This document shows positions 94 through 13,721 of a stretch of DNA of 64,000 nucleotides, one piece after another. This DNA is from Ancylobacter radicis (GTDB lineage Bacteria; Pseudomonadota; Alphaproteobacteria; Rhizobiales; Xanthobacteraceae), in NCBI RefSeq assembly GCF_018449475.1, contig NZ_JAHCQH010000014.1, positions 434,001-498,000 on the forward strand. Reading direction: 5' to 3'. The position numbers were made by a program, and so were the translations under genes. The stretch's first letter is position 1. The number at the start of each line of letters is the position of its first letter. The notes below the pieces were generated by a model. That model did not search any database, was not told the DNA's origin, and saw only the letters and a program-made list of their open reading frames with translations.

Positions 94-714
94 ATGGACG
101 TTAAGGCCGATAAGGCCGATGGAATCGAACTCGGCGTTCGGGTGCGTGGTCTGCGGACCCGTGCTGGCCTCACCATCAAGCAGGTGGCCGAACGGGCGGG
201 CATCTCGCCGTCGGCAATCTCGAAAATCGAGAACAGCCTGCTCTCGCCGACCTATGACAACATCATCCGCCTCGCCCAAGGGCTTGGCGTCGATATCTCC
301 GAACTGTTCTCCTCCGCGCGCAAACAGGCGCCGCATGGCCGTCGGTCCCTCACGCGGGCAGGTGGAGGCGACTACATCCGCACACGCGCCTATACGCTGG
401 AGATGCTGTGCTCGGACCTCACCGCCAAGCGCATGCAGCCGATGAAGGCGCGGCTGCGGGCGCATGAGGCCCATGAGTTCGGCAGTCTCGTCGCCCATGC
501 CGGCGAGGAAATCGTGCTGGTGCTGAAGGGCCGCGTGACGCTGCTCACCGAATTCTACGCGCCGGTGACCCTCGAAGAGGGCGACAGCGTCTATTTCGAC
601 AGCACGATGGGGCACGCCCTCCTGAGCGCAGGCGCGGAGGACGCGGAGATTTTCTGGGTCTGCGCCGCCGATCAAAGCCTCCGTTTCGACGAGACGCCGC
701 CGGAAACTCCTTGA
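94..714 (+). CDS. XRE-family transcriptional regulator with C-terminal cupin domain
   Basis: This is a 206-residue protein. An N-terminal helix-turn-helix (about residues 14-70, including SPSAISKIENSLLSPT) is followed by a small beta-barrel cupin domain (about 125-195, with the VLKGRVTLL and LEEGDSVYFDS strands). This is the usual design of one-component regulators that sense a small metabolite in the cupin and govern amino acid or polyamine use. I chose the ATG at 94 because GGAG (82-85) sits at good spacing; a TTG at 64 is possible but has no better ribosome site. The gene is followed by an importer and catabolic operon on the same strand, and a 12-bp palindrome precedes both units, so it is probably the local regulator. 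The effector is unknown. Confidence 0.9.
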   Translation: MDVKADKADGIELGVRVRGLRTRAGLTIKQVAERAGISPSAISKIENSLLSPTYDNIIRLAQGLGVDISELFSSARKQAPHGRRSLTRAGGGDYIRTRAYTLEMLCSDLTAKRMQPMKARLRAHEAHEFGSLVAHAGEEIVLVLKGRVTLLTEFYAPVTLEEGDSVYFDSTMGHALLSAGAEDAEIFWVCAADQSLRFDETPPETP

Positions 715-807: not shown

Positions 808-1677
808 ATGACCGAAAATGTCGGTAACCGCCGCACCTTCCTGGCCGCCGGATCGCTTGTCGGGGCGGCTGCCGTCCTTGGCGCCGGCTCCGGCCCGGTG
901 CTCGCCCAGGACGCCCCCGCCGGCAGTACGCTCAAGGCGATCCGGGATCGCGGCGAACTCCGCATCGGTGTCGCACCGGGCGAGCCGTGGTTCTACAAGG
1001 ACCAGCGGTCCGGTGAGTGGTATGGCCTCGGCTGGGGCGCCGGCGTCGCGGTGGCGAAGGAACTCGGCGTGAAGCCGGTTCCGGTCGAGACCACCTGGGG
1101 CAATGCGGTGGCCGCTTTGCAGGCCGGCCAGTTCGACGTCATGTTCACCATGGATGCGACGCCGCAGCGGGCTCTGGCGGTGGATTTCCCCGTGCAGCCC
1201 ATGTTCTGGTACGCGCAGGGCGTTCTGCTCGCCGACGGCGTGACGGCCAGCACTTGGGAGGAGATGAACAAGCCGGAATTCCGCATCGGCGTGGTGCTCG
1301 GCACGTCGCCGGATCGCGACATAACGGTGCGCCTGCCCAAGGCGACCATCGAGCGTTTCCCCAGCGCGGACGAGACCGGCGCGGCCTTCATCGCCGGGCG
1401 CATGGACGGCATCTCGCTGTTCCACCCGGCCTTGGTGATGCTGCAGTCGCGGCTCAAGCGGGGCAAGGTGATCCTGCCGCAGCCGCTGCGCGAATCCCCG
1501 TCCAGCGCCGCGGTGCCGAACGTTGCCGACAAGAGCTGGCGCGACTGGCTCGGCGTCTGCCTCGGCTATTTCTACGCCACCGGCCAGACGCAAAAGATCT
1601 TCGAGGACTATCTCGCCTTCCGCGGCATCGATCCGGCCTCGACGCCGGCGATCATGCGCGAACGCTGGAAGGCCTGA
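808..1677 (+). CDS. ABC transporter substrate-binding protein, polar amino acid family
   Basis: This 289-residue periplasmic solute-binding protein has the family 3 (polar amino acid) fold. A twin-arginine-like leader is visible (NRRTF near residue 7, then a hydrophobic stretch to about residue 33 ending VLAQ). The mature part begins with the typical GELRIGVAPGEPWFYKD and contains LQAGQFDVMFTMDATPQRA. It captures a small charged or amphipathic solute for the two permeases and ATPase encoded downstream. It is the first gene of the operon and is separated from the permeases by a hairpin with a T-tract, which would keep binding protein in excess. The ligand cannot be read from the sequence. Confidence 0.9.
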   Translation: MTENVGNRRTFLAAGSLVGAAAVLGAGSGPVLAQDAPAGSTLKAIRDRGELRIGVAPGEPWFYKDQRSGEWYGLGWGAGVAVAKELGVKPVPVETTWGNAVAALQAGQFDVMFTMDATPQRALAVDFPVQPMFWYAQGVLLADGVTASTWEEMNKPEFRIGVVLGTSPDRDITVRLPKATIERFPSADETGAAFIAGRMDGISLFHPALVMLQSRLKRGKVILPQPLRESPSSAAVPNVADKSWRDWLGVCLGYFYATGQTQKIFEDYLAFRGIDPASTPAIMRERWKA

Positions 1678-1767: not shown

Positions 1768-2439
1768 ATGCAATATGTGTGGGACTTCCGGCCGGTATGG
1801 CTGAACTTCGGCGTTTTGCTGGAAGGGCTGGTCAACACGCTGAAGCTTTCCGGCTTCTCGATCGGACTCGGCCTCGCCATCGGGCTTGTCCTCGCCATGG
1901 GCCGGCTGGCGCCGTCGCGTATCGTTTCAATCCCCGCGACCGCGATCATCGAATTCTACCGCAACACCCCGCCGCTGGTGCATTTCTTCTGGTATTTCTA
2001 TGGCCTGCCCATTCTCACGGGCATCAGCCTGACGCCCTTCGCGGCAGCGGCGGCAGCACTTTCGGTACAGTCCGGTGCCTTTTTCGCGGAAGTGTTTCGC
2101 GGCGGCATCATTTCGGTCGATCGCGGGCAGTGGGAAGCCGGCCGCGCCATCGGCATGAGCCACGTGCAGCTGATGCGCCGCATCATCCTGCCGCAGGCCT
2201 TCCGCCGCATGATCCCGCCGCTGATGGAGCGTTCCTTCGAGCTGGTGAAGACCACCTCGCTCGCGGCGACGCTGACTTATGGCGAGCTGGTCTACAAGGC
2301 GATGGTGCTGGCGACGCAGACCTACCGTCCGATGGAGATCTATTCGACGGTGGCGGTGATGTTCTTCACCGTGCTGTTCGTCGCCAGCCTCGGCATGCGC
2401 GCGGTGGAACACCGCCTCGCGCGCCGCGCGGCCCGGTGA
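1768..2439 (+). CDS. Amino acid ABC transporter permease (first subunit)
   Basis: This 223-residue inner-membrane permease is of the HisM/GlnP type. The EAA loop that docks the ATPase is clear (QWEAGRAIGMSHVQLMRRI, then LPQAF). Several hydrophobic helices are present, and the IEFYRNTPPLVHFFW segment is typical of polar amino acid permeases. I chose the ATG at 1768 (MQYVWDF) over an earlier in-frame start at 1726 because family members start near here. The second permease starts 5 bp downstream of the stop, so the two subunits are probably made together as a heterodimer. Confidence 0.9.
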   Translation: MQYVWDFRPVWLNFGVLLEGLVNTLKLSGFSIGLGLAIGLVLAMGRLAPSRIVSIPATAIIEFYRNTPPLVHFFWYFYGLPILTGISLTPFAAAAAALSVQSGAFFAEVFRGGIISVDRGQWEAGRAIGMSHVQLMRRIILPQAFRRMIPPLMERSFELVKTTSLAATLTYGELVYKAMVLATQTYRPMEIYSTVAVMFFTVLFVASLGMRAVEHRLARRAAR

Positions 2440-2444
2440 TCGCC

Positions 2445-3113
2445 ATGAATTACACCTTCCAGTTCGGCGAAATCCTGGCGAATAGCGACCTTCTGCTGCG
2501 CGGGCTGAAGCTCACCATCCTGCTTTTCGCCATCGCCTTTTCCGGCGCGCTAGTCTGCGGGCTGTTCATCGGCCTCGCGCGCGGGTCGGCGCTCCGGGTG
2601 CCGAACCTGATCGCCACCGCCTATATCGAGATCTTCCGCAACACCCCGGTGCTGGTGCAGCTGATCTGGTTCTATTACGCCCTGCCCGCCCTCTCCGGCT
2701 GGCAGCCGAGCGCCTTCACCGCCGCCGCGCTCGGCCTGTTCCTCAACACCTCAGCCTATTGCGCTGAAATCTGGCGCGCCGGCTTGCAATCACTGCCGGC
2801 CGGGCAATGGGAGGCAGGGCGCGCCATCGGTATGAGCGAATGGCAGTTGCTGCGCCGCGTGGCGGTGCCGCAGGCGTTTTCCCGCATGGTGCCCGCCTTC
2901 ACCAATCGCGGTGTCGAGCTTGCCAAGATGACCTCCATCGCCTCCACCATCACCGTGCAGGAGCTGATGTACGAGGCGAAGATGCTGAGCACGCAGACCT
3001 TCCTGCCGCTCGAGACCTTCACCATCGTCGCGGTGATCTATTTCGTCCTCATTTACCCGGGAACGCTGGCCGCCTACGCGCTTGAGCGTCGCCTCAATTC
3101 CAAGGGAGCCTGA
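2445..3113 (+). CDS. Amino acid ABC transporter permease (second subunit)
   Basis: This 222-residue permease is paralogous to the preceding one, with the same EIFRNTPVLVQLIWFYYALP signature and EAA loop (QWEAGRAIGMSEWQLLRRV). The ATG at 2445 follows the previous stop by 5 bp. A long open frame extends far upstream in this phase, but it overlaps the two preceding genes and is not coding there. With the ATPase 5 bp downstream it completes the membrane part of the importer. Confidence 0.9.
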   Translation: MNYTFQFGEILANSDLLLRGLKLTILLFAIAFSGALVCGLFIGLARGSALRVPNLIATAYIEIFRNTPVLVQLIWFYYALPALSGWQPSAFTAAALGLFLNTSAYCAEIWRAGLQSLPAGQWEAGRAIGMSEWQLLRRVAVPQAFSRMVPAFTNRGVELAKMTSIASTITVQELMYEAKMLSTQTFLPLETFTIVAVIYFVLIYPGTLAAYALERRLNSKGA

Positions 3114-3118
3114 TCGCC

Positions 3119-3928
3119 ATGGTGGACGTGACATCGGCGAGTGTGCCCCCGGTTCTGGCCCCCCCGGTTCTCGCGGTCGAGGGGCTGCACAAGAGCTTCG
3201 GCAGCAATGAGGTGCTCAAAGGCATCGACCTGAAGGTCGCCGCCGGCGAGCGCATCGCCATTCTCGGCTCATCCGGTTCCGGCAAGAGCACGCTCCTGCG
3301 CTGTATAAACTTCATGGAGACGCCGAGCGCCGGGCGCATCGCCCTCGATGGCACCTCCATCGGCGTCGAGGGGCGTGGCGGGGCGATTACCGCGCGATCG
3401 GGCGAGCTGCGCCGCCTGCGCACCCGCGTCGGCATGATCTTCCAGCAATTCAACCTGTTCCCCCACATGACCGTCCTCGAAAACGTCATGGAAGGTCCGG
3501 TGACGGTGAAGGGCATGAACCGCAAGGAGGCTCGCGCCACGGCGCAGGACTATCTCAAGCGCGTTGGCCTGTCCGACAAGGCGGAGCAATACCCGCAGCG
3601 CCTGTCCGGCGGCCAGCAGCAGCGTGTCGCCATCGCCCGCGCGCTCGCCATGGAGCCGGAGATCCTGCTGTTCGACGAGCCGACCTCCTCGCTCGACCCG
3701 GAACTGGTCGGCGAGGTGCTCGACGTCATTCTCGGCCTCTCGAAGGAGGGGCGGACCATGCTGCTGGTCACGCACGAGCTCGGCTTTGCCTATCATTTCG
3801 CGACACGGGTGCTGTTCCTGCACGAGGGGCGCATCCATGAGCAAGGCACCCCCGACGAGGTGCTGAAGAACCCGCGCGAGGAGCGCACGCAGGCCTTCCT
3901 GCGCCGCTTTTCAGCGTTCCACTTCTGA
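3119..3928 (+). CDS. Polar amino acid ABC transporter ATP-binding protein (GlnQ/HisP type)
   Basis: This 269-residue cytoplasmic ATPase powers the importer. Walker A is GSSGSGKST (about residues 50-58), the signature is LSGGQQQR, and Walker B with its glutamate is ILLFDEPTSSLDPE. The Q-loop and H-loop (LLVTHELGF) are intact. A proline- and valine-rich N-terminal tail of about 18 residues precedes the domain. It starts 5 bp after the second permease and is followed 12 bp later by an enzyme gene, so transport and metabolism are in one transcript. Confidence 0.93.
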   Translation: MVDVTSASVPPVLAPPVLAVEGLHKSFGSNEVLKGIDLKVAAGERIAILGSSGSGKSTLLRCINFMETPSAGRIALDGTSIGVEGRGGAITARSGELRRLRTRVGMIFQQFNLFPHMTVLENVMEGPVTVKGMNRKEARATAQDYLKRVGLSDKAEQYPQRLSGGQQQRVAIARALAMEPEILLFDEPTSSLDPELVGEVLDVILGLSKEGRTMLLVTHELGFAYHFATRVLFLHEGRIHEQGTPDEVLKNPREERTQAFLRRFSAFHF

Positions 3929-3940
3929 GCGAGATCGAAC

Positions 3941-4849
3941 ATGGTTGAGGAAAAGGGCGCCCAGACGCCGCTCGAGGACCCGCGCAACCACGATCTGTGG
4001 ATCTGGCTCAACGGCCGTCTGGTGAAGCGGGCGCAGGCGATGGTGTCGATCTTCGACGCCGGCTTCGGCCTGGGTGACGGCGTGTGGGAAGGCATCCGCA
4101 TGGCGAAGGACCGGCTGGTGCTGGTCGACGATCATCTGGACCGGCTCTTTGAGGGTGCCAACACCATCGCCCTCGACATCGGCATGACCAAGGCGCAGTT
4201 GCGCGCGGCGCTGGAAGAACTGTGCGCCGCCAACGACATGACGGACGGTGGCCATATCCGCCTGATGGTGACGCGCGGCGAGAAGCACACGGTGCATCAG
4301 GACCCGCGCAACGCGCTCGGCAAGCCGACCATCGCCATCACCGCCGAGTTCAAGGTGCCCGATCCGGAGATCAAGAGGGCCGGCATCAAGCTGTTCACCT
4401 CGACCTTCCGCACCTCCGGGCCGGACAGCTTCGACCTGCACCTCAATTCGCACAGCCGGCTGAACTTCATCCGCCCGCTGCTGCAAGCCATCGCCGCCGG
4501 CGCCCATGAGGCGCTGATGCTGGACCCGGGCGGCTTCGTCGCCAGTTGCAACTCGACCAATTTCTTCATCGTGAAGCGCGGCGAAGTGCTCACCTCGACC
4601 GGTCGCACCTGCTTCAAGGGCATCACCCGGCGGAAGGTGCTCGAACTCTGCGCGCGGGAAGGCATACCCTGCCGCGAGACCGACTTTACCCTCGCCGAGG
4701 CCTACAATGCCGACGGGGCCTTCGTGACCGGCACCTTCGGCGGCGTCACGCCGGTGCGCAGCCTCGACGGGCGGCCGATCGGCGCCGCGCTGCCTTGCCC
4801 GATGACCCAACGCCTGTCGGATCTTTATGACCGCACCTTCCTCGCCTGA
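3941..4849 (+). CDS. Class IV aminotransferase-fold protein, apparently lacking the PLP lysine
   Basis: This 302-residue protein aligns by eye along its length with D-amino acid and branched-chain aminotransferases (fold type IV): FDAGFGLGDGVWEGIR, DDHLDRL, GHIRLMVTRG and FKGITRRKVLELC are all in place. In a gapless comparison with bacterial D-amino acid aminotransferase, which I recall from memory, the Schiff-base lysine (in KSLNLL) falls on Asn169 (in HLNSHSRLN). The glutamate that contacts the PLP ring nitrogen (in TEGSSSN) falls on Ser202 (in ASCNSTN). If right, it either does not use PLP in the usual way or has another role, such as lyase chemistry. Annotation pipelines will probably call it an aminotransferase. 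It lies between the importer ATPase and an MmgE/PrpD gene that it overlaps by 23 bp. Confidence 0.8.
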   Translation: MVEEKGAQTPLEDPRNHDLWIWLNGRLVKRAQAMVSIFDAGFGLGDGVWEGIRMAKDRLVLVDDHLDRLFEGANTIALDIGMTKAQLRAALEELCAANDMTDGGHIRLMVTRGEKHTVHQDPRNALGKPTIAITAEFKVPDPEIKRAGIKLFTSTFRTSGPDSFDLHLNSHSRLNFIRPLLQAIAAGAHEALMLDPGGFVASCNSTNFFIVKRGEVLTSTGRTCFKGITRRKVLELCAREGIPCRETDFTLAEAYNADGAFVTGTFGGVTPVRSLDGRPIGAALPCPMTQRLSDLYDRTFLA

Positions 4850-6254
4850 CGCTGACGGATCGGGCCTCACCGCCGCCATCTCCCGCTTCGCCGCGGGATT
4901 TGACGGCGCGGCGATCCCGGCGACGATCCGGGCGAAGGCACGCACCCACATCCTCGATAGTATCGGCTGCGGCCTTGCCGGTGCGTCGACCGAAATGCAG
5001 CGGCGTATCCTTGCCGCGACCCGCATCGAAGCCCGCCCCGGCCCCTGCCGCGTGCTGGGCGAGAGCGAGGGGCTCGGCCCGGTCGCTGCCGCTTTCGTCA
5101 ATGCCGCGGCGATGAATGCGCTCGATTTCGACGATGGGCTGGATGACGAAATGGGCCGTGGCATGGGGCATCCCGGCGCCTCCATCGTCGCCGCCGCGCT
5201 CAGCGCCTGCTTCGAGCGGACGGTCACCGGAGCGGACTTCGTCACCGCCGTGGCGCTGGCCTATGAGGTCAACAACCGGCTGATCCGCGCCATGCAGCCG
5301 AGCATCGAGCGTTTTCGGCTGGTCTATGGCGTGTGCCAGCATCAGGCGATCGGGGCCGCCATCGCCTATGGCAGGCTCATGGACCTCGATGACGCGGCCA
5401 TGGAGAATGCGCTCGGCTTTGCCGGCACCTTCGCCAATGTGCCGAGCCTGCGGAAATACAATTGGGAGCGCCGGCCGCTCGTCACCTTCAAGGATTTCCT
5501 CGCTCCGGCGGCGGAAGCCGGTGTGCGCGGCGTCAGCCTGCACCGCGCCGGGCTGGTCGGTGCCAAGGCGATACTCGACGGCCCCTCGGGCCTGTGGCGC
5601 ATGCTCGGTTCCGACCGGTTCGAGCCGGAACGACTTACCGAGGGGCTGGGCCAAAACTGGACGCTCGGCTTCAACACCCTGAAGCCCTACCCGGCCTGCC
5701 GCTGGATGCACACCACGCTTGACGCCTTCGAGACCCTGCTGGCCGAGCACACCATCCCGGCCGACGCGATCGAGGCCATCACCGTGCATACCGACGCCGC
5801 GCTGCGGCGCGACTTCATGGATGGGTCGCCGCTCAGCATCAACGATGCGCAGTTCTCCTTCCCCTACACGCTGGCGGCTCTTGCGCTGCGTCTTGACCGG
5901 TCGCGCTGGTACGATGCCGGCCCTATGACCTCGCCGGTGTTGAGGGCCCTTGCAGGGCGCGTGAGCGGCGTTGTCGATGCCGAGGCGAGCGAACTGATGA
6001 ACGGCCAGCGGCGCCCGGCGGGGCGGGTCGATATCCGGCTGAAGGACGGCACGGCATATGGCTCTCCGCTCGTCGTCGATGCGCCGGGCGGTGTGCGCCG
6101 TCCGCTGCCGGACAGCGTGGTCGCGGAAAAATTCCTCGGCAATGCGCGCGTCGCGCTCGGTGCCGAGAGCGCCGCCGATTTACTCGGCCTCATCGCGCGC
6201 ATCGAGACGGTGCCGGATCTGGGCGCCGCTCTCTCCCGGCACGGCTGCGGCTGA
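4827..6254 (+). CDS. MmgE/PrpD family protein
   Basis: This 475-residue cytoplasmic protein belongs to the MmgE/PrpD family, which includes 2-methylcitrate dehydratase, cis-aconitate decarboxylase and an iminodisuccinate epimerase. Family marks include ILDSIGCGLAG near residue 40, ALDFDDGLDD with GHPG (the helical-domain active-site region), and KPYPACRWMHTTLDA. It starts inside the last codons of the aminotransferase-like gene (23-bp overlap), which implies tight coupling. The usual prpBC partners are absent, so propionate catabolism is unlikely. The reaction is probably dehydration, decarboxylation or epimerisation of a di- or tricarboxylate derived from the imported solute; this is inference. 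Confidence 0.85.
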   Translation: MTAPSSPDADGSGLTAAISRFAAGFDGAAIPATIRAKARTHILDSIGCGLAGASTEMQRRILAATRIEARPGPCRVLGESEGLGPVAAAFVNAAAMNALDFDDGLDDEMGRGMGHPGASIVAAALSACFERTVTGADFVTAVALAYEVNNRLIRAMQPSIERFRLVYGVCQHQAIGAAIAYGRLMDLDDAAMENALGFAGTFANVPSLRKYNWERRPLVTFKDFLAPAAEAGVRGVSLHRAGLVGAKAILDGPSGLWRMLGSDRFEPERLTEGLGQNWTLGFNTLKPYPACRWMHTTLDAFETLLAEHTIPADAIEAITVHTDAALRRDFMDGSPLSINDAQFSFPYTLAALALRLDRSRWYDAGPMTSPVLRALAGRVSGVVDAEASELMNGQRRPAGRVDIRLKDGTAYGSPLVVDAPGGVRRPLPDSVVAEKFLGNARVALGAESAADLLGLIARIETVPDLGAALSRHGCG

Positions 6255-6437: not shown

Positions 6438-7868
6438 ATGTCCCCCAACACCCAGAAATTCTACATTGATGGTGCCTTTGTCGACCCGATCGAGAATCGC
6501 CCGCTCGGCGTGGTCGATCCGGCGACCGAGCAGGTGTTCGCCACCATTTCGCTCGGCACGCAGGCCGATGTCGACCGCGCCGTGGCCGCCGCCCGCACGG
6601 CGTTTGCGAGCTTCCAGTTCACCTCCAAGGAGAAGCGCCTTGCCCTTCTGGAGAGCCTGCTCGCCGTCTATGAGCGCCGCTATGAGGATGTCGCGCAGGC
6701 GATCAGCCATGAGATGGGCTCGCCCATCGCCCGCGCCCGCGACTCGCAGGCCTATGCGGGTCTTGGCCATCTGAAGGCGACCATCGAGGCGTTCCGTAAC
6801 TTCGAGTTCGACGAGACGCGCGGCACCACCCGCGTCACCCATGAGCCGGTCGGCGTCGTCGGCCTCATCACGCCGTGGAACTGGCCGCTCAACCAGATCA
6901 TGTGCAAGGTCGCGCCCGCCATCGCCGCCGGCTGCACCATGGTGCTGAAGCCTTCCGAGATCGCCCCGATCTCCGGCGTCGTCTTCGCCGAGATCATGCA
7001 CGAGGCCGGCTTCCCCAAGGGTGTGTTCAATCTGGTGAACGGCACCGGCCCGGAAGTCGGCGCGGCGCTGTCCTCCCATCCCGACATCGACATGGTGTCC
7101 TTCACCGGCTCGACGCGCGCCGGCATTGATGTCGCGCGCAACGCCGCGGCGACGGTGAAGCGCGTGGCGCAGGAACTCGGCGGCAAGTCCGCCAATATCG
7201 TGCTGCCGGATGCCGACCTCGAAGCCGCCGTGTCCCAGGGCGTGCTGTCCTGCTTCTCCAATACCGGCCAGTCCTGCGACGCGCCGACCCGCATGCTGGT
7301 GCCCGCCGCCCGCCATGACGAGGCGCTGGAGATCGCCCGCAGCACGGCCGCGACCGTGCGCGTCGGCGCCCCCACCGACACCGAGACGCAGATCGGCCCG
7401 CTGGTCAGCGACGTGCAGTTCGCCAAGGTGCAGGACCTCATCCAGGCCGGCATCGACGAGGGCGCGACGCTGGTGGTCGGCGGTACCGGCAAGCCGGAAG
7501 GGCTGGAGACCGGCTATTTCGTCAAGCCGACCGTGTTCGGCCATGTGAAGCCCGGCATGCGCATCGAGCGCGAGGAAATCTTCGGCCCGGTGCTGTCGAT
7601 CCTCCCCTATGACAGCGTCGATCAGGCCATCGCCATCGCCAACGACACGCCTTATGGGCTGGCCGCCTATATCCAGGGGACGGACATCGAGGAAGCACGC
7701 CGCGTCGCCGGCAAGCTGCGGGCCGGCTCGGTCTATCTGAACTATCCGGACTGGGACCTGTTCGCGCCCTTCGGCGGCTACAAGCAGTCCGGCAACGGGC
7801 GCGAATACGCCGATTTCGGCCTGCGCGACTTCCTGGAGATCAAGGGCATCGTCGGCTACGGCGCCTGA
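6438..7868 (+). CDS. NAD(P)-dependent aldehyde dehydrogenase
   Basis: This 476-residue aldehyde dehydrogenase family enzyme oxidises an aldehyde to the acid with NAD(P). The catalytic cysteine is Cys280 (in NTGQSCDAP) and the general base Glu246 (in QELGGKS). The oxyanion-hole asparagine lies in PWNWPLNQ, and the FTGSTRAG nucleotide loop and EEIFGPVLS motif are present. It follows the MmgE/PrpD gene after 183 bp of unassigned sequence, so it may have its own promoter. It is the last gene before a strong terminator. It probably completes the pathway begun by the imported compound, but the substrate is unknown. Confidence 0.92.
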   Translation: MSPNTQKFYIDGAFVDPIENRPLGVVDPATEQVFATISLGTQADVDRAVAAARTAFASFQFTSKEKRLALLESLLAVYERRYEDVAQAISHEMGSPIARARDSQAYAGLGHLKATIEAFRNFEFDETRGTTRVTHEPVGVVGLITPWNWPLNQIMCKVAPAIAAGCTMVLKPSEIAPISGVVFAEIMHEAGFPKGVFNLVNGTGPEVGAALSSHPDIDMVSFTGSTRAGIDVARNAAATVKRVAQELGGKSANIVLPDADLEAAVSQGVLSCFSNTGQSCDAPTRMLVPAARHDEALEIARSTAATVRVGAPTDTETQIGPLVSDVQFAKVQDLIQAGIDEGATLVVGGTGKPEGLETGYFVKPTVFGHVKPGMRIEREEIFGPVLSILPYDSVDQAIAIANDTPYGLAAYIQGTDIEEARRVAGKLRAGSVYLNYPDWDLFAPFGGYKQSGNGREYADFGLRDFLEIKGIVGYGA

Positions 7869-7976: not shown

Positions 7977-8687
7977 CTATCGCCAATAGGCGACGGTGAG
8001 GCGTTGCGCGTCGCCGATCCCGGACGCTTCCCAGTGCTTTTTCAGACGTCGGGCGCAATCGGCATGTGCGCCGGCCCAGGCAAATACGGTGGCGCCTGCT
8101 GGTGGCACGAGGGCCGAGACCGCAACGAAAAGCCGGTCACCGACGGTCTCTCCGCGGCCGGGATGAACCCAGCGGACGAGAATGCCGGGAGGGTGAGAAA
8201 ACCCGATCCGTTCCTCCCGCGTCCCCACGCTCAGCACGGCGATGCCAACCGCCGAGACCGGCAGGGCCTCGACAATCCGTGAAATTGCCGGCAGGGCCGT
8301 CTCGTCGCCGGCGAAGATGTGCCAGTCGGCCGCGCCGACAGGACGCCCCACCGGTCCGGCGATCTCGCATGTGGCACCGGCCTGCGCCTGTGCCACCCAG
8401 CCGCAGGCCGGCCCCGGCGTGTCATGCAGAAAGAAGTCGATGTCCATCTCGCCAGCATCCGCATTGATCCGCCGGATCGTGTAGAGGCGCGTCGCCCGGC
8501 ATTCGCCCTCTCCGATCGACAGCCTCACATGCAATTGCCGGGGCGCATCGAAGGGCGTGAGATCGGCGCCGCTCAGGGTGATGCGACGCATCCGTCGCGA
8601 GAGGTCCGCGACGCGCACGACTGTCATCGTCCGCCGCGCGAGACCGGCGTCGCAAACAGTGATCACATCGGGGGATGCCGCCGTCAT
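7977..8687 (-). CDS. Siderophore-interacting protein (FAD-dependent ferric-siderophore reductase)
   Basis: This 236-residue cytoplasmic flavoprotein of the SIP/ViuB family reduces imported ferric siderophores and so releases Fe2+. The N-terminal FAD-binding barrel carries the RLYTIRR motif followed by MDIDFFLH. The C-terminal NAD(P)H-side domain contains FAGDETALPAI and VFAWAGAHAD, and the chain ends with the family-typical AYWR. It overlaps the end of the fused permease gene by 4 bp and is the last gene of the iron operon, which runs right to left from the receptor at 13.7 kb. Confidence 0.9.
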   Translation of the reverse strand: MTAASPDVITVCDAGLARRTMTVVRVADLSRRMRRITLSGADLTPFDAPRQLHVRLSIGEGECRATRLYTIRRINADAGEMDIDFFLHDTPGPACGWVAQAQAGATCEIAGPVGRPVGAADWHIFAGDETALPAISRIVEALPVSAVGIAVLSVGTREERIGFSHPPGILVRWVHPGRGETVGDRLFVAVSALVPPAGATVFAWAGAHADCARRLKKHWEASGIGDAQRLTVAYWR

Positions 8688-10657
8688 CGCCGAGCCAGCA
8701 TGTAAAGAAGATAGGGCGTGCCGATGAGCGAAGCGAACAGGCCGATCGGCATCTGGTAGGGGTAGAAGGCGAGCCGTGAAGCGAGGTCGGCTACGCCCAT
8801 CAGCAAGGCTCCGAGCGCCGCCGAGATCGCCACCAGGCTCCTCGCATCGGCTGCGCCCGTATGGCGGGCGATGTGCGGCGCCATCAGGCCGACAAAGCTC
8901 ACAGGCCCGAGGGTCAGCGCGGCAGCGCCTGTCAGCAACGCGGCAAGAGTGAGCAGGACCAGTCGCGTCCGTATCATGGCAAGGCCGAGCGCCGCCGGCA
9001 TCTCACTCCCGAGGGACAGCAGGTCGAGCCATCGCGACAGCAGCAATGCCGGGAAGATGAGGACGACGGCGAGAACAGCTGTCACCACGGCAATCGCAGG
9101 ATCGACATGCGCCGTCGCGCCGGTGAGCCAGGCGAGGATCATCCCCGCCTCCATGCCTCCGCGCGTCATCAGAATCGTCAATGCGGCGCCGCAGAAGGAA
9201 CCCAGGGCGACGCCCGCGAGCAGCATGCGGTTGCCCTCGAAGGCGCCTCCGCGAGCCGCGACGATCAGGACGGCGAAGCCGAGGATCGCGCCCAGCGTCG
9301 CGCCGGCGATCTGTCCCGCCAGCCCCATCGCGGGGGCGGCAAAGACGCTGATCGCCATGGCCAGGATCGCCGCCGAACTCACCCCGAGCACTTCCGGGCT
9401 CGCCAGGGGATTCGACGTCATGCGCTGAAGGAGGCAACCCGCGGTCGCCAGCATGGCGCCGCCGGCCATCGCGGCAACGAGCCTCGGCGCGCGCCAGGGA
9501 AGCAGCGTTGCGACCGTCGAGAGAGAATCGAACCCGATGTCGATCTCGCTCCGCCCGACCAGCAGCGCCAATGCCGTGACAAGGGCGAGGCTGCCGAGAA
9601 TGGCCGGAAACAGCTGGCGGCGCGACGATTCCGTCAATCCATCCGCCCGCAAATCCGGACGCGCCGCGCGCAGCCGGCTGGATAGCCAGAACAGCACCGG
9701 TCCGGCAAACAGCGCGGTAACCGCGCCGGTTGGCATGTCGAAGCGGCTGGCCCGATCGATCGCCTGCACGAGGCCGTCGGTGACGCTCAGCATCAGGGCG
9801 CCCAGAAGCGGCGACAGCGGCAGGACAAGGCGTACCGTCCGCGCTCCCATGAGCCGCGCGAGATTTGGCGCAGCGAGACCGACAAAGCCGATCACGCCGA
9901 CCTGCGAGACGACAGCCGCCGAAAGAGCCACGGCGAGAACGAGTATGGCGAGCCGTACAGCTGATACCGATAGTCCCAGCGCACGCGCCCCCTGATCATC
10001 GAGTGTCAGCAGGGTCAGCGCGCGCACGAACAGCATCGAGATAACGAAGGCCGGTACGAAGCGCACGGCAAGATCGAGCGGCGGCATCCAGTTCTGTTGT
10101 GCGAGCGAGCCGCCGCCCCAGAGAAACAGGGAGGTCAGATACTGGCCGCTGTAGAGGATGATGGTGGCCGTGAGCGAGGCACAGAGCAGCCCCACCATCA
10201 TGCCCGCCACCACCACGGTCGCCGGCTCGAAGGAGCGTCGCCAGGACAGGCCAAGAACGATGAAGACGGCGACCAGCCCACCCGCGAAGGCAACGCTCTC
10301 GCGCGGAAAGCCGCCGAGTTCGGGGGCGAAAGCTGTCGCGGCGACAATGGCGAGATGGGCGCCGGCGGCTACGCCGAGGCTCGACGGATCGGCAAGCGTG
10401 TTGCGCAACACGATCTGCAGCAGCACCCCTGCCAGCCCGAGGGCCGCCCCCGCCAGAAGTCCGACCAGATAGCGCGGAGCAAGGCTGTGAAGCGCGATCA
10501 GGCCGGCGAACCTGCCGGAAGGGTTCATTGCGGCGATGGAGCCATTCGCGGAAAAAACGTCCACCAGCGACCAGCCAAACAGAGCAAGCGACAGCATGGC
10601 GAGCAGCAGGCACAGCAACAGGATGTGGCGGCGTGAGGCGATGTCGTCAGGCATCAT
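8684..10657 (-). CDS. fhuB: Fe(III)-hydroxamate ABC transporter permease, fused double-domain FhuB type
   Basis: At 657 residues this is twice the size of a single FecCD permease. Two homologous halves can be seen: AAGAHLAIVAATAFAPELGG in the first matches GVSSAAILAMAISVFAAPA in the second, and VGFVGLAAPNLAR matches VSFVGLMAPHIAR. This tandem layout is the mark of FhuB, the inner-membrane channel for hydroxamate siderophores. The start overlaps the fhuD stop (ATGA). The cognate ATPase FhuC is not encoded anywhere in the window, so the complex must recruit an ATPase from elsewhere. Confidence 0.92.
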   Translation of the reverse strand: MMPDDIASRRHILLLCLLLAMLSLALFGWSLVDVFSANGSIAAMNPSGRFAGLIALHSLAPRYLVGLLAGAALGLAGVLLQIVLRNTLADPSSLGVAAGAHLAIVAATAFAPELGGFPRESVAFAGGLVAVFIVLGLSWRRSFEPATVVVAGMMVGLLCASLTATIILYSGQYLTSLFLWGGGSLAQQNWMPPLDLAVRFVPAFVISMLFVRALTLLTLDDQGARALGLSVSAVRLAILVLAVALSAAVVSQVGVIGFVGLAAPNLARLMGARTVRLVLPLSPLLGALMLSVTDGLVQAIDRASRFDMPTGAVTALFAGPVLFWLSSRLRAARPDLRADGLTESSRRQLFPAILGSLALVTALALLVGRSEIDIGFDSLSTVATLLPWRAPRLVAAMAGGAMLATAGCLLQRMTSNPLASPEVLGVSSAAILAMAISVFAAPAMGLAGQIAGATLGAILGFAVLIVAARGGAFEGNRMLLAGVALGSFCGAALTILMTRGGMEAGMILAWLTGATAHVDPAIAVVTAVLAVVLIFPALLLSRWLDLLSLGSEMPAALGLAMIRTRLVLLTLAALLTGAAALTLGPVSFVGLMAPHIARHTGAADARSLVAISAALGALLMGVADLASRLAFYPYQMPIGLFASLIGTPYLLYMLARR

Positions 10658-11565
10658 GCGAGTGCGTTGCCCAGCAGGCGGGCGAGGCGACGCGCGGTCG
10701 GCAGCCCGCCAAACGGATTGACTGGGTCGATGACATGCACCCGGCCTTGGGCGACCGCCGGCAAGGCGTTCCAGAGAGGGCTCTCGGGCAGCACGCGCAG
10801 CGCATCCGATGGAATCGGGCGGACGATGATGATGTCGGCATCGCCCACATTCGCCAACGACACGAGATCGACCGGAGCCTGAGCCGAATACCGTGTCTGG
10901 CCTGCCCAGGCATTGCGTAGGCCGAGGCTGTCGAGCACATGACCCTGCATGCTGTCGGCGCCGAACACTCGAAAATGCCGGGGATCGCCGATATTGATGA
11001 TGCAGAAGGCGTCGCCCCGCCGCCTCGCAAGCCGCTCCCGCTGCGCGCTGATTTCCGCCGCCACCTCGATTATGAGGTTTTCCGCCCTCTCGCCGCTCCC
11101 CGTGAGCCGCCCTAGCTCCCGTGCCGCCTCCATGGCGGGCTCATAGGGCGAACGCCCGCGCTGGTCGATGCGGAAGCTATGGACGGGTGCGATGCGGCTC
11201 AGATTGGATTGATATTTCACGTACCACGGCGCGGAAAGGATCAGGTCCGGAGCGGCGCGCAGAAGTGCCTCATAGTTCAGGCTGCCGCGCAGGCCGAGAT
11301 CAGAGACACCGGGCGGCATGGCGGGCTCGACCACCATCTGGCGATAGAGCCGCAACTCCGCCGCGGCGACCACCTCGACACCCATGGCGATGGCTGTCTC
11401 CAGCATCGCCCAGTCGATCGCAGCGACCCGGACCCTAAGACGCTCCGTGGCGCAGGCGGGCATCCCCACCCCCGCAATTGAGGCGGCAAGGCCCGTACAG
11501 AGCGTTCGCCGGGTGAGGCCGTTCACAACGGATATCCCAAAAGCTGGCCGAGGTCGCGAGGACAT
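10654..11565 (-). CDS. fhuD: Iron-siderophore substrate-binding protein, FhuD type
   Basis: This 303-residue periplasmic binding protein of the FhuD/class III helical-backbone family delivers ferric siderophore to FhuB. A leader with TRRTLCTGLAAS (possible Tat motif) and GMPACA (possible lipobox) precedes the mature domain. PDLILSAPWYVKYQSNLSRI and GDADIIIVRP are typical fold elements. The ATG at 11565 gives the plausible leader; an earlier in-frame start would run into the receptor gene. It starts 23 bp after the receptor stop and overlaps fhuB at its end. The Tat-like leader suggests export in folded form, as for other cofactor-linked proteins, but the motif is not perfect. Confidence 0.88.
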   Translation of the reverse strand: MSSRPRPAFGISVVNGLTRRTLCTGLAASIAGVGMPACATERLRVRVAAIDWAMLETAIAMGVEVVAAAELRLYRQMVVEPAMPPGVSDLGLRGSLNYEALLRAAPDLILSAPWYVKYQSNLSRIAPVHSFRIDQRGRSPYEPAMEAARELGRLTGSGERAENLIIEVAAEISAQRERLARRRGDAFCIINIGDPRHFRVFGADSMQGHVLDSLGLRNAWAGQTRYSAQAPVDLVSLANVGDADIIIVRPIPSDALRVLPESPLWNALPAVAQGRVHVIDPVNPFGGLPTARRLARLLGNALA

Positions 11566-11588
11566 CTGTATTTGCGCACCGGCCGGCG

Positions 11589-13721
11589 TCACCAGCGGTA
11601 GTAGAGACCCGCGCTCACCGTCCGGCCGTAGCCATAGGCGCAGGTCGTCGACGTGTAGCAAGAGGCCAGATAGGTCTCATCCGTCAGGTTCTTGGCGTTG
11701 ACCTGCAACCGCCAGCCATCGAGTTCCGCATATTTCTTGCCGAAATCGTAGGACAGCGCGGCGTCGAACAGCGTCACGTCTGGAAGCTCGATCGTGTTGT
11801 TGGTGTTGTAGCTCGACCCGATATAGCGGACGCCGACGGCACCCGCGAGCCCGTAAAAGGGCGAGCCCGGCTGGACGTCGTAATGCACCCAGAGCGAGGC
11901 CATATCGTCGGGCACGCCGACGGGGACGAGGCCCTCCAGGCCGCTATTGTCCTGCGTGTATTTCGTGTCCAGATGGGTATAGGCGGCGAGGACCGACCAG
12001 CCGTCCTGCAACTGGGCCTTGGCCTCGAACTCGAAGCCGCGCGAGCGCGCCTCGCCGATCTGGACCGAGTAGCCGATATGGGCGAGGTCCGACGTCAGAA
12101 GGTTCTGGCGCGTCAGATCGAAATAGGCCGCGGTGATCAGCAGGTCGGTGCCGGGCGGCTGGTACTTGATGCCCACCTCATATTGCGTTCCCTGTTCAGG
12201 CTCGAAGGCATCGCCGTTGAAATCGGTGCCGGCGATCGGCGTGAAGGATTCGGCGTAGCTCACATAGGGGGCGAGGCCGTTGTCGAAATGGTAGAGCAGG
12301 CCGAAGCGGGTGCTGGGCGCGGAATCGTCCTGCTTTTGCAGCGTGGTGCTGCGGGTCGTGCTTTCCGCCCAGTCCTGGCGGATGGCCAGGGTGGCGATCC
12401 AGTTGCCGATGCGGATCTGGTCCTGGGCATAGAGCCCATACTGGGTACCGTCCACATCGGTGCGGCGCAGGGCCGGCATCACGACCGTCTTGCCGTAGAC
12501 CGGATTGAAGATGTCGATCGAGGGCGCGGTTCCACTGCCCGAATTATAGAAGCCATCATAGGCCTGCGCGTCGAAACCGACGAGCAGGGTGTGGCGCAGC
12601 GCGCCGGTCTCGAACGTCTTCTCGATCTGGTTGTCGAAGGCGAACGAGCTGAGTTCGTCATGGGAATAGGTCACCGAGCGTGACAGCGTTCGGTTGTCGG
12701 CTCCGAGCGAGCGACCATAGACGCCGGCATAGTCGAGTTCGGTGCCGAACCACTGCCCGTTTGCCCGCACCACCAGCGTGTCGTCGACGGCATGCTCGAA
12801 CCGATAGCCGAGCGACGCCTGTGTGCGGTCAAACTGCTCGATATCGGGTTCGCCCGCATTGAAATCCCGAGGAATGACGCCATTCGGATTAAACACGGCC
12901 GAGCCCATCGAGGGCACACCGGCGTAGGAGTTCGCCTCCGGGTCGCGCTGGTAGAAGGCCGTCAGCGTCAGGCTGGTCTGGTCGCTCGGCCTCCAGGTCA
13001 GGGTCGGGGCGACCGCGAAACGCTCCGCCGACGTGTCCTCGATCTGGCCATTGCCGGCACTGCCGACCGCCGCCACGCGGTAGAGCAGCGAGCCGTCCTT
13101 GCTGATGGGGCCGGAGAGATCGGCCACGGCGCGGCGATAGGCGAAGTTGCCGACATCGGCTCCGACCTCGTGATAGGGCTGGGCCAGCGGCATCTTCATG
13201 ATCTGGTTGACCATGCCGCCAGTCGGCGCCTGGCCGTAGAGCACCGAGGTCGGCCCCTTCAGCACGTCGATGCGCTCGAGAAGGTAGGGGTCGATCTGTG
13301 GCGAGACGAAGTTCATCTTCATCAGGCGCAGACCGTTCAGATAGGTCGCGGCGTCGAAACCCCGGATCTTGAACAGGTCGAAACGTGTCGAGATGGCGCC
13401 GCGGCTCTCCGGGATCACGCCCGCGGTGTAGCGCAGCGCCTCGTTCAGCGAGAGCGCGTTCTGCTGCCGAATCTGGTCCGCCGTGATCACCGAGATGCTC
13501 TGCGCGGTCTCGACGATCGGCGTGTTGGTCTTTGTACCCGTCGAGGAGCGTTCGGCGACGAGGCCGTTGACCGGCCCCGTGGGTGTCTGGCCACGGCCTT
13601 CCACGCTGATCGTATCAAGCTCTATGGATGCGTCTTCTTCCGCATATGCCGATGAAATTCCGGCAAATACCACTGAGGCGACCAGAATATTAGACGTATG
13701 GCGGTAAAATGGACTGCGCAT
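11589..13721 (-). CDS. TonB-dependent siderophore receptor
   Basis: This 710-residue outer-membrane receptor imports ferric siderophore using TonB energy. It has a signal peptide (residues 1-27, ending SSAYA), a TonB box-like IELDTISVEG, a plug domain (ETAQSISVITADQIRQQ, LKGPTSVLYGQAPTGGMVN), and a 22-strand barrel ending in the required aromatic residue (AGLYYRW). The plug sequence is close to the ferrichrome/hydroxamate receptor group (FhuA/FoxA). It heads an operon with FhuD, FhuB and the SIP reductase. A divergent LysR gene lies 161 bp away. The ribosome site is weak (AGG close to the ATG). Confidence 0.93.
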   Translation of the reverse strand: MRSPFYRHTSNILVASVVFAGISSAYAEEDASIELDTISVEGRGQTPTGPVNGLVAERSSTGTKTNTPIVETAQSISVITADQIRQQNALSLNEALRYTAGVIPESRGAISTRFDLFKIRGFDAATYLNGLRLMKMNFVSPQIDPYLLERIDVLKGPTSVLYGQAPTGGMVNQIMKMPLAQPYHEVGADVGNFAYRRAVADLSGPISKDGSLLYRVAAVGSAGNGQIEDTSAERFAVAPTLTWRPSDQTSLTLTAFYQRDPEANSYAGVPSMGSAVFNPNGVIPRDFNAGEPDIEQFDRTQASLGYRFEHAVDDTLVVRANGQWFGTELDYAGVYGRSLGADNRTLSRSVTYSHDELSSFAFDNQIEKTFETGALRHTLLVGFDAQAYDGFYNSGSGTAPSIDIFNPVYGKTVVMPALRRTDVDGTQYGLYAQDQIRIGNWIATLAIRQDWAESTTRSTTLQKQDDSAPSTRFGLLYHFDNGLAPYVSYAESFTPIAGTDFNGDAFEPEQGTQYEVGIKYQPPGTDLLITAAYFDLTRQNLLTSDLAHIGYSVQIGEARSRGFEFEAKAQLQDGWSVLAAYTHLDTKYTQDNSGLEGLVPVGVPDDMASLWVHYDVQPGSPFYGLAGAVGVRYIGSSYNTNNTIELPDVTLFDAALSYDFGKKYAELDGWRLQVNAKNLTDETYLASCYTSTTCAYGYGRTVSAGLYYRW

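Follow-up and report, generated by a model that had tools for sequence, protein, structure and literature searches.

A protein of Ancylobacter radicis that looks like a fold-type IV aminotransferase was found to belong to a discrete clade marked by the replacement of the Schiff-base lysine by Asn and of the glutamate at the N1 position of pyridoxal phosphate (PLP) by Ser or Thr. This protein (hereafter the Lys-less protein), whose gene directly follows the genes of an ABC importer, probably does a job other than transamination on a compound taken up by the bacterium. Annotations of clade members read "aminotransferase class IV", "D-amino acid aminotransferase" or "branched-chain amino acid aminotransferase", although the lysine required for such an enzyme is missing. 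The stretch of DNA analyzed here (64,000 nucleotides, hereafter the window) and the features discussed below are described in Table 1.

Table 1. Features of the Lys-less gene and its presumed operon in the window (clade rows and Lys rows are those of the MAFFT alignment; roles of phosphate-cup residues are from excerpts of PMC12429042)
Feature	Position	Strand	Basis or remark
XRE (HTH) and cupin regulator, first gene of presumed operon	94..714	+	Pfam HTH_31/HTH_3/Cupin_2 on ORF 64-714; start by codon model
Alternative TTG start of XRE-cupin regulator	64	+	
Periplasmic solute-binding protein, family 3 (SBP_bac_3)	808..1677	+	Pfam PF00497, E 2.1e-14
Polar-amino-acid-type ABC permease	1768..2439	+	Pfam BPD_transp_1 on ORF 1726-2439; start by codon model
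Second ABC permease, 4-base overlap with first	2436..3113	+	Pfam BPD_transp_1, 8.6e-23; codon model
ABC ATPase	3119..3928	+	Pfam ABC_tran, 2.6e-39
Lys-less aminotransferase-like protein	3941..4849	+	302 residues, intact ORF
Arg68 codon, phosphate-cup arginine kept	4142..4144	+	Arg in 127/127 clade rows and 27/27 Lys rows
Asn169 codon AAT, at Schiff-base lysine position	4445..4447	+	Alignments
His171 codon	4451..4453	+	Invariant in clade (127/127 rows), not in Lys-bearing relatives
Ser202 codon AGT, at PLP-N1 glutamate position	4544..4546	+	Ser in 95 and Thr in 32 of 127 clade rows
Thr229 codon, phosphate-cup threonine kept	4625..4627	+	127/127 clade rows
Thr265 codon, phosphate-cup threonine kept	4733..4735	+	126/127 clade rows
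MmgE/PrpD-family protein, 23-base overlap with Lys-less gene	4827..6254	+	Pfam PF03972/PF19305
Aldehyde dehydrogenase, 183 bases downstream of MmgE/PrpD	6438..7868	+	Pfam Aldedh

Fold and family assignment

An earlier note, made from the sequence alone, had described the protein as an intact homologue of fold-type IV aminotransferases encoded in an active-looking operon, and this description holds. The ORF is uninterrupted, its product carries the Aminotran_4 domain, and the fold-type IV aminotransferase fold is predicted to be retained. The gene is under purifying selection (dN/dS of 0.12, 0.14 and 0.19 versus three Ancylobacter relatives), and the operon is compact. In the NCBIfam equivalog models for IlvE, D-amino-acid transaminase and PabC, the protein scored under the cut-off in all 18 families listed; the best branched-chain aminotransferase (BCAT) model among those listed gave 221.5 bits versus a cut-off of 363, and TIGR01121 (D-amino acid aminotransferase) gave 156.2 versus 277.45.

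Loss of the catalytic lysine as a clade character

A search of GTDB genomes found 347 encoding stretches, of which the best 80 were kept. Among 398 sampled Pseudomonadota genomes, the Lys-less gene was present in 41 (E <= 1e-60; the window's own genome counted), approximately one in ten, and loci were taken from 30 of these 41. A tblastn check identified Asn at the lysine site in 110 of the 114 loci with a match, comprising the best 80 from GTDB, 29 from the Pseudomonadota sample and the window's own locus. The remaining four were weak own-genome paralogues with approximately 28-31% identity; Lys stood at the site in three of them, and in the fourth the alignment had slipped by one residue. 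With further loci added, the distinct relatives numbered 136 (profile E <= 1e-80, the window excluded from the count), and every one carried an N[ST]HS motif with Asn at site 169, encoded by AAC in 80 and by AAT in 56, and their identity to the window protein dropped as low as 48%. Thus, no clade homologue with Lys at site 169 was found among the 136, and the earlier placement of Asn169 on the Schiff-base lysine and of Ser202 on the N1 glutamate, made by gapless comparison with a D-amino acid aminotransferase, agrees with the alignment of homologues, in which the first site is fixed clade-wide and the second is Ser or Thr in all 127 rows.

The clade was clearly delimited. When 96 genomes belonging to the window's class were searched with a profile, clade members scoring at least 419.8 bits turned up in 10 of them (one being the window's own), and no other sequence in the 96 genomes exceeded 227.3 bits. 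The pair of Asn and Ser/Thr was present in all examined loci scoring above this gap, and the lower-scoring rows kept Lys in 27/27 and Glu at the N1 site in 26/27 in the MAFFT alignment. The Lys set excludes L182 (same gene as L160) and L172 (with an in-frame stop), the clade set excludes L001 and L151 (both the window itself), and the 127 clade rows include a few genes fetched twice. Misalignment was considered and rejected: a profile alignment had put a gap or another letter at the lysine position of several rows that do have Lys; the MAFFT alignment showed Lys in all 27. The Lys/Asn state changed only once on a tree of 154 rows made with FastTree, and the Lys group split off with an SH support of 99, a value that is indicative only, as long branches were warned of.

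We also searched for an invariant lysine across the 127 clade rows and found none. The best conserved one, Lys115, is Lys in 123 rows and Arg in four, and Lys212, which had been named in the earlier note as a possible occupant of the Schiff-base position, is Arg in 113 rows and Lys in 12 in the sequence alignment. These counts rule out a relocated lysine as a clade-wide replacement.

Retained phosphate cup and new invariant residues

Excerpts of PMC12429042 describe, in one fold-type IV enzyme, a Schiff-base Lys, a Glu at N1, a Tyr at O3' and an Arg/Thr/Thr set around the phosphate; excerpts of PMC10003956 report a similar phosphate cup. Lys and the N1 Glu are missing together in every row of the Lys-less clade, while the phosphate-cup residues are kept by sequence (Table 1), as is Glu50; Gly227 is also invariant in the 127 rows. 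In addition, the clade has its own invariant residues, including Trp49, His105, Met109, Gln120, Glu136, His171, Ser172, Asn204 and Ser219, each of which is different or mixed in the Lys-bearing rows. Because the cup is kept and the new invariant residues are common to the clade, these proteins look retooled rather than decayed, although the retained cup could also reflect structural constraint. Arg173 was considered as a counterpart of the lost O3' tyrosine and was dropped, as ordinary relatives vary at the position four residues after Lys, with Leu, Tyr, Trp or Arg there.

Organization of the operon in the window

The presumed operon consists of genes for the XRE-cupin regulator, the solute-binding protein, two permeases, the ATPase, the Lys-less protein and the MmgE/PrpD-family protein, with only 12 bases between the ATPase and Lys-less genes. 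The identical gene order was observed at three Ancylobacter, two Rhizobium and one Roseomonas locus. By sequence, the nearest solved relatives of the MmgE/PrpD-family protein are cis-aconitate decarboxylase and IDS-epimerase. The aldehyde dehydrogenase gene is an unsure member of the operon, and none was found after MmgE/PrpD in the three relatives from Ancylobacter. Adjoining the operon on the minus strand (7977-13721) is an iron-siderophore-type uptake cluster, which encodes a siderophore-interacting protein, a FecCD permease of double length with two matched stretches, a binding protein of the Peripla_BP_2 family and a TonB-dependent receptor.

The nearest solved chains to the solute-binding protein are ancestral cyclohexadienyl-dehydratase-type proteins and amino-acid binders. 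A Phe-His-Pro motif was noticed in this protein and 42 relatives (Phe in 43/43 and His in 42/43, counted on those 43 of 50 proteins that are longer than 255 residues). Amino-acid binders are expected to bear a ligand-contacting Asp at the position of this Phe. The inference of a ligand from the Phe was abandoned as too weak, since only two of the five alignable own-genome controls (eight tried of 13 found) carried the expected Asp. Something other than a plain alpha-amino acid may be imported.

Genomic neighbours across the clade

Two kinds of neighbours were found for the Lys-less gene. Of the 136 distinct relatives, an ABC ATPase gene adjoins it in 72 (the arrangement seen in the window) and a gene of the Sulfotransfer_5 family in 28; none has both, 30 have neither, and the flank was too short in six. 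A neighbour was scored as ABC if an ATPase-like gene lay no more than 500 bases away on the same strand; the type of importer was determined only for the displayed loci and the plasmid tables. Many of the displayed ABC operons consist only of the regulator, the importer and the Lys-less gene. Within 6 kb of the 72 ABC-type genes, same-strand genes included those for a ClC channel (16), ProC (8) and MmgE/PrpD (6), the last also occurring on the opposite strand in three. In Mameliella, a choline-sulfatase-type gene (TIGR03417, 591.6 versus a cut-off of 433.45) overlaps the Lys-less gene by four bases. As such extra genes (ClC, ProC, MmgE/PrpD and choline sulfatase) vary by lineage, no single pathway fits yet, and a single common substrate is not certain either, because 30 of the 136 adjoin neither partner and some adjoin TRAP or unrelated-looking genes.

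Co-occurrence with Sulfotransfer_5

Sulfotransfer_5 (PF19798) was found in 37 of the 398 genomes. Its distribution closely followed that of the Lys-less gene: 36 genomes have both, five have only the Lys-less gene, one has only PF19798 (a weak match of 61.9 bits) and 356 have neither (Fisher 1.3e-44, uncorrected for kinship). Within families, the numbers of genomes with both and with neither were 3/7 (f12), 5/13 (f13), 22/4 (f17), 3/1 (f18), 1/13 (f40) and 1/2 (f46) with 0 mismatches, and the Lys-less gene occurred alone in two genomes of f49 and one of f22. The within-family product over these eight families was 3.9e-13 among the genomes listed for them, single-case families being left out. 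Of the 36 genomes with both genes, 27 have them side by side on one strand, several pairs overlapping by four bases, and nine have them apart. Among 25 genomes with loci from the GTDB search, Sulfotransfer_5 occurred in three, as the neighbour of the Lys-less gene in two (L041 and L061) and together with an ABC-type Lys-less gene in the third (L085).

The 35 Sulfotransfer_5 sequences share a WSGPRN.ST.MM stretch followed by a later LiR.ParV.aSY stretch, which resemble PAPS-binding motifs. APS kinase was examined as support for a sulfotransferase function and was not discriminating, being present in 35 of the 36 Sulfotransfer_5 genomes (all except G032) but also in 304 of the 398 overall. Plant fusions of sulfotransferase and aminotransferase-like proteins exist (At3g05190 and At5g27410); a literature search for these two gene names found no paper.

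The genome of the window is one of the five with only the Lys-less gene, and no Sulfotransfer_5 match was found in its operon or elsewhere in the genome. Therefore, the link says nothing direct on the window copy; it concerns sister groups, and informs on this copy only if all Lys-less proteins share a ligand.

Comparison with known proteins

This kind of protein is already known as a structure. The Lys-less protein in the window is an added member of the kind represented by PDB 7Z79, an aminotransferase-like protein of Variovorax paradoxus released in 2022, with which it shares Asn at the lysine site, the NSHS[RK] and S/T-C/T-N motifs and a high overall similarity. An N174K mutant of the V. 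paradoxus protein was released in 2025 (PDB 9J32). The title of the 7Z79 entry names no function, and our literature search for 7Z79 or 9J32 found no paper, though subscription papers may exist. The solved homologue makes a structural test immediate. What is new here is the clade-wide extent, the two kinds of neighbours and the co-occurrence with the sulfotransferase family, for which we know of no report within the literature searched.

Fold-type IV BCATs (such as 5E25/5CM0 of Geoglobus and 5MQZ of Archaeoglobus) have the Schiff-base Lys and N1 Glu in place of Asn and Ser, and D-amino acid aminotransferase (1DAA; E177S mutant 1G2W) also has the Schiff-base Lys that the window protein lacks. 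ColD is a Lys-less enzyme using pyridoxamine phosphate (PMP), with His at the lysine site. The window protein has Asn169 at this position, and its invariant His is at 171.

Possible roles of the Lys-less protein

The explanation that we consider moderately probable is that this is a non-transaminase protein that handles or acts on the ligand of the importer, held by the old phosphate cup. During evolution the clade would have swapped both PLP residues once and fixed new ones (Trp49, His105, His171, Ser172, Asn204 and Ser219). Such a protein could presumably not hold PLP as an internal aldimine, and would therefore not be an ordinary transaminase. Through the old cup its pocket would most likely bind an anionic ligand, which could be a compound bearing phosphate or sulfate or else PLP/PMP held non-covalently, and the protein might carry out a non-transaminase step on, or handle, the compound brought by the ABC importer encoded directly before it. 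In sister lineages the neighbour is a Sulfotransfer_5 gene rather than an importer, a pattern suggesting that cells obtain the ligand either by import or by making it themselves. The importer and sulfotransferase neighbours offer two concrete handles on the real ligand. The earlier suggestion of a pseudo-transaminase with a new role is the best reading, because Lys and Glu are lost clade-wide, no lysine is invariant, the gene is intact and selected and the operon is compact; the new role itself we only infer.

It is somewhat unlikely that the protein is a non-catalytic pseudoenzyme, limited to binding a vitamer of B6 or a ligand resembling an amino acid and to regulating or escorting a partner, which would be the importer, the regulator or, among sister lineages, the sulfotransferase. 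The joint disappearance of the catalytic Lys and N1 Glu in every clade row would fit such a role, as would the coupling of the gene to partner genes, sometimes with overlap, and the many operons that hold nothing else than regulator, importer and Lys-less gene. On the other hand, the many new invariant residues despite identity down to 48% are more usual for an enzyme, and the partner genes vary by lineage.

A protein that is still a B6 enzyme, binding PLP or PMP without a Schiff base and using His171 or Lys115/Arg173 for proton transfer in the manner of ColD, appears unlikely. The phosphate cup and Glu50 are kept, Lys115 is nearly invariant, and the invariant His171 lies two residues from the old lysine, all of which favour this possibility. 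However, the N1 Glu is gone in every row, and the choice of an N174K mutant by the depositors would suggest that the unmutated protein had failed to act as a transaminase.

The boldest reading, and a quite unlikely one, is a B6-free fold-type IV enzyme whose cup holds the sulfate or phosphate group of an amino-acid-like ester, with His171 and Asn169 performing an elimination, cyclisation or hydrolysis. The ester would be made by Sulfotransfer_5 or imported by the ABC transporter, as in the window. This would explain the either-or neighbours, the co-occurrence with the sulfotransferase family and the overlapping choline-sulfatase-type gene of Mameliella and, if true, would be an uncommon switch of chemistry within a fold that is well studied.

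Finally, an ordinary transaminase whose lysine was misplaced by the gapless comparison, or a sequencing error or decaying gene, has only the caveat of the earlier note in its favour and is practically untenable, given Asn in all 136 relatives with two codons, the lack of any other invariant lysine in the clade, the very name of the N174K mutant of the solved homologue and the dN/dS values of 0.12-0.19.

Additional genomic settings

A similar operon with a GntR regulator is present on annotated plasmids, such as those of Agrobacterium, Paracoccus and Thioclava. Genes for a ClC-type chloride channel and a ProC-type reductase were observed in the Lys-less operons of the Thioclava (L144:8894-11467), Paracoccus (L141:8935-11500) and Agrobacterium (L138:3954-10694) plasmids, and are explained by no reading of the Lys-less protein. 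Other plasmid settings include TRAP-type genes and phospholipid genes. In Mameliella (L148:6004-12839), the importer is followed by the Lys-less gene and genes for the choline-sulfatase-type enzyme, DapA-type and DadA-type proteins, an SDR and an aldehyde dehydrogenase, a row resembling a catabolic set for cyclic amino acids. In four loci on contigs titled Chloroflexi or Thermoflexus (L028, L033, L043 and L049), the Lys-less gene lies beside an epimerase-like gene and two enolase-superfamily-like genes, as read from their sequences, a setting quite unlike most proteobacterial loci seen.
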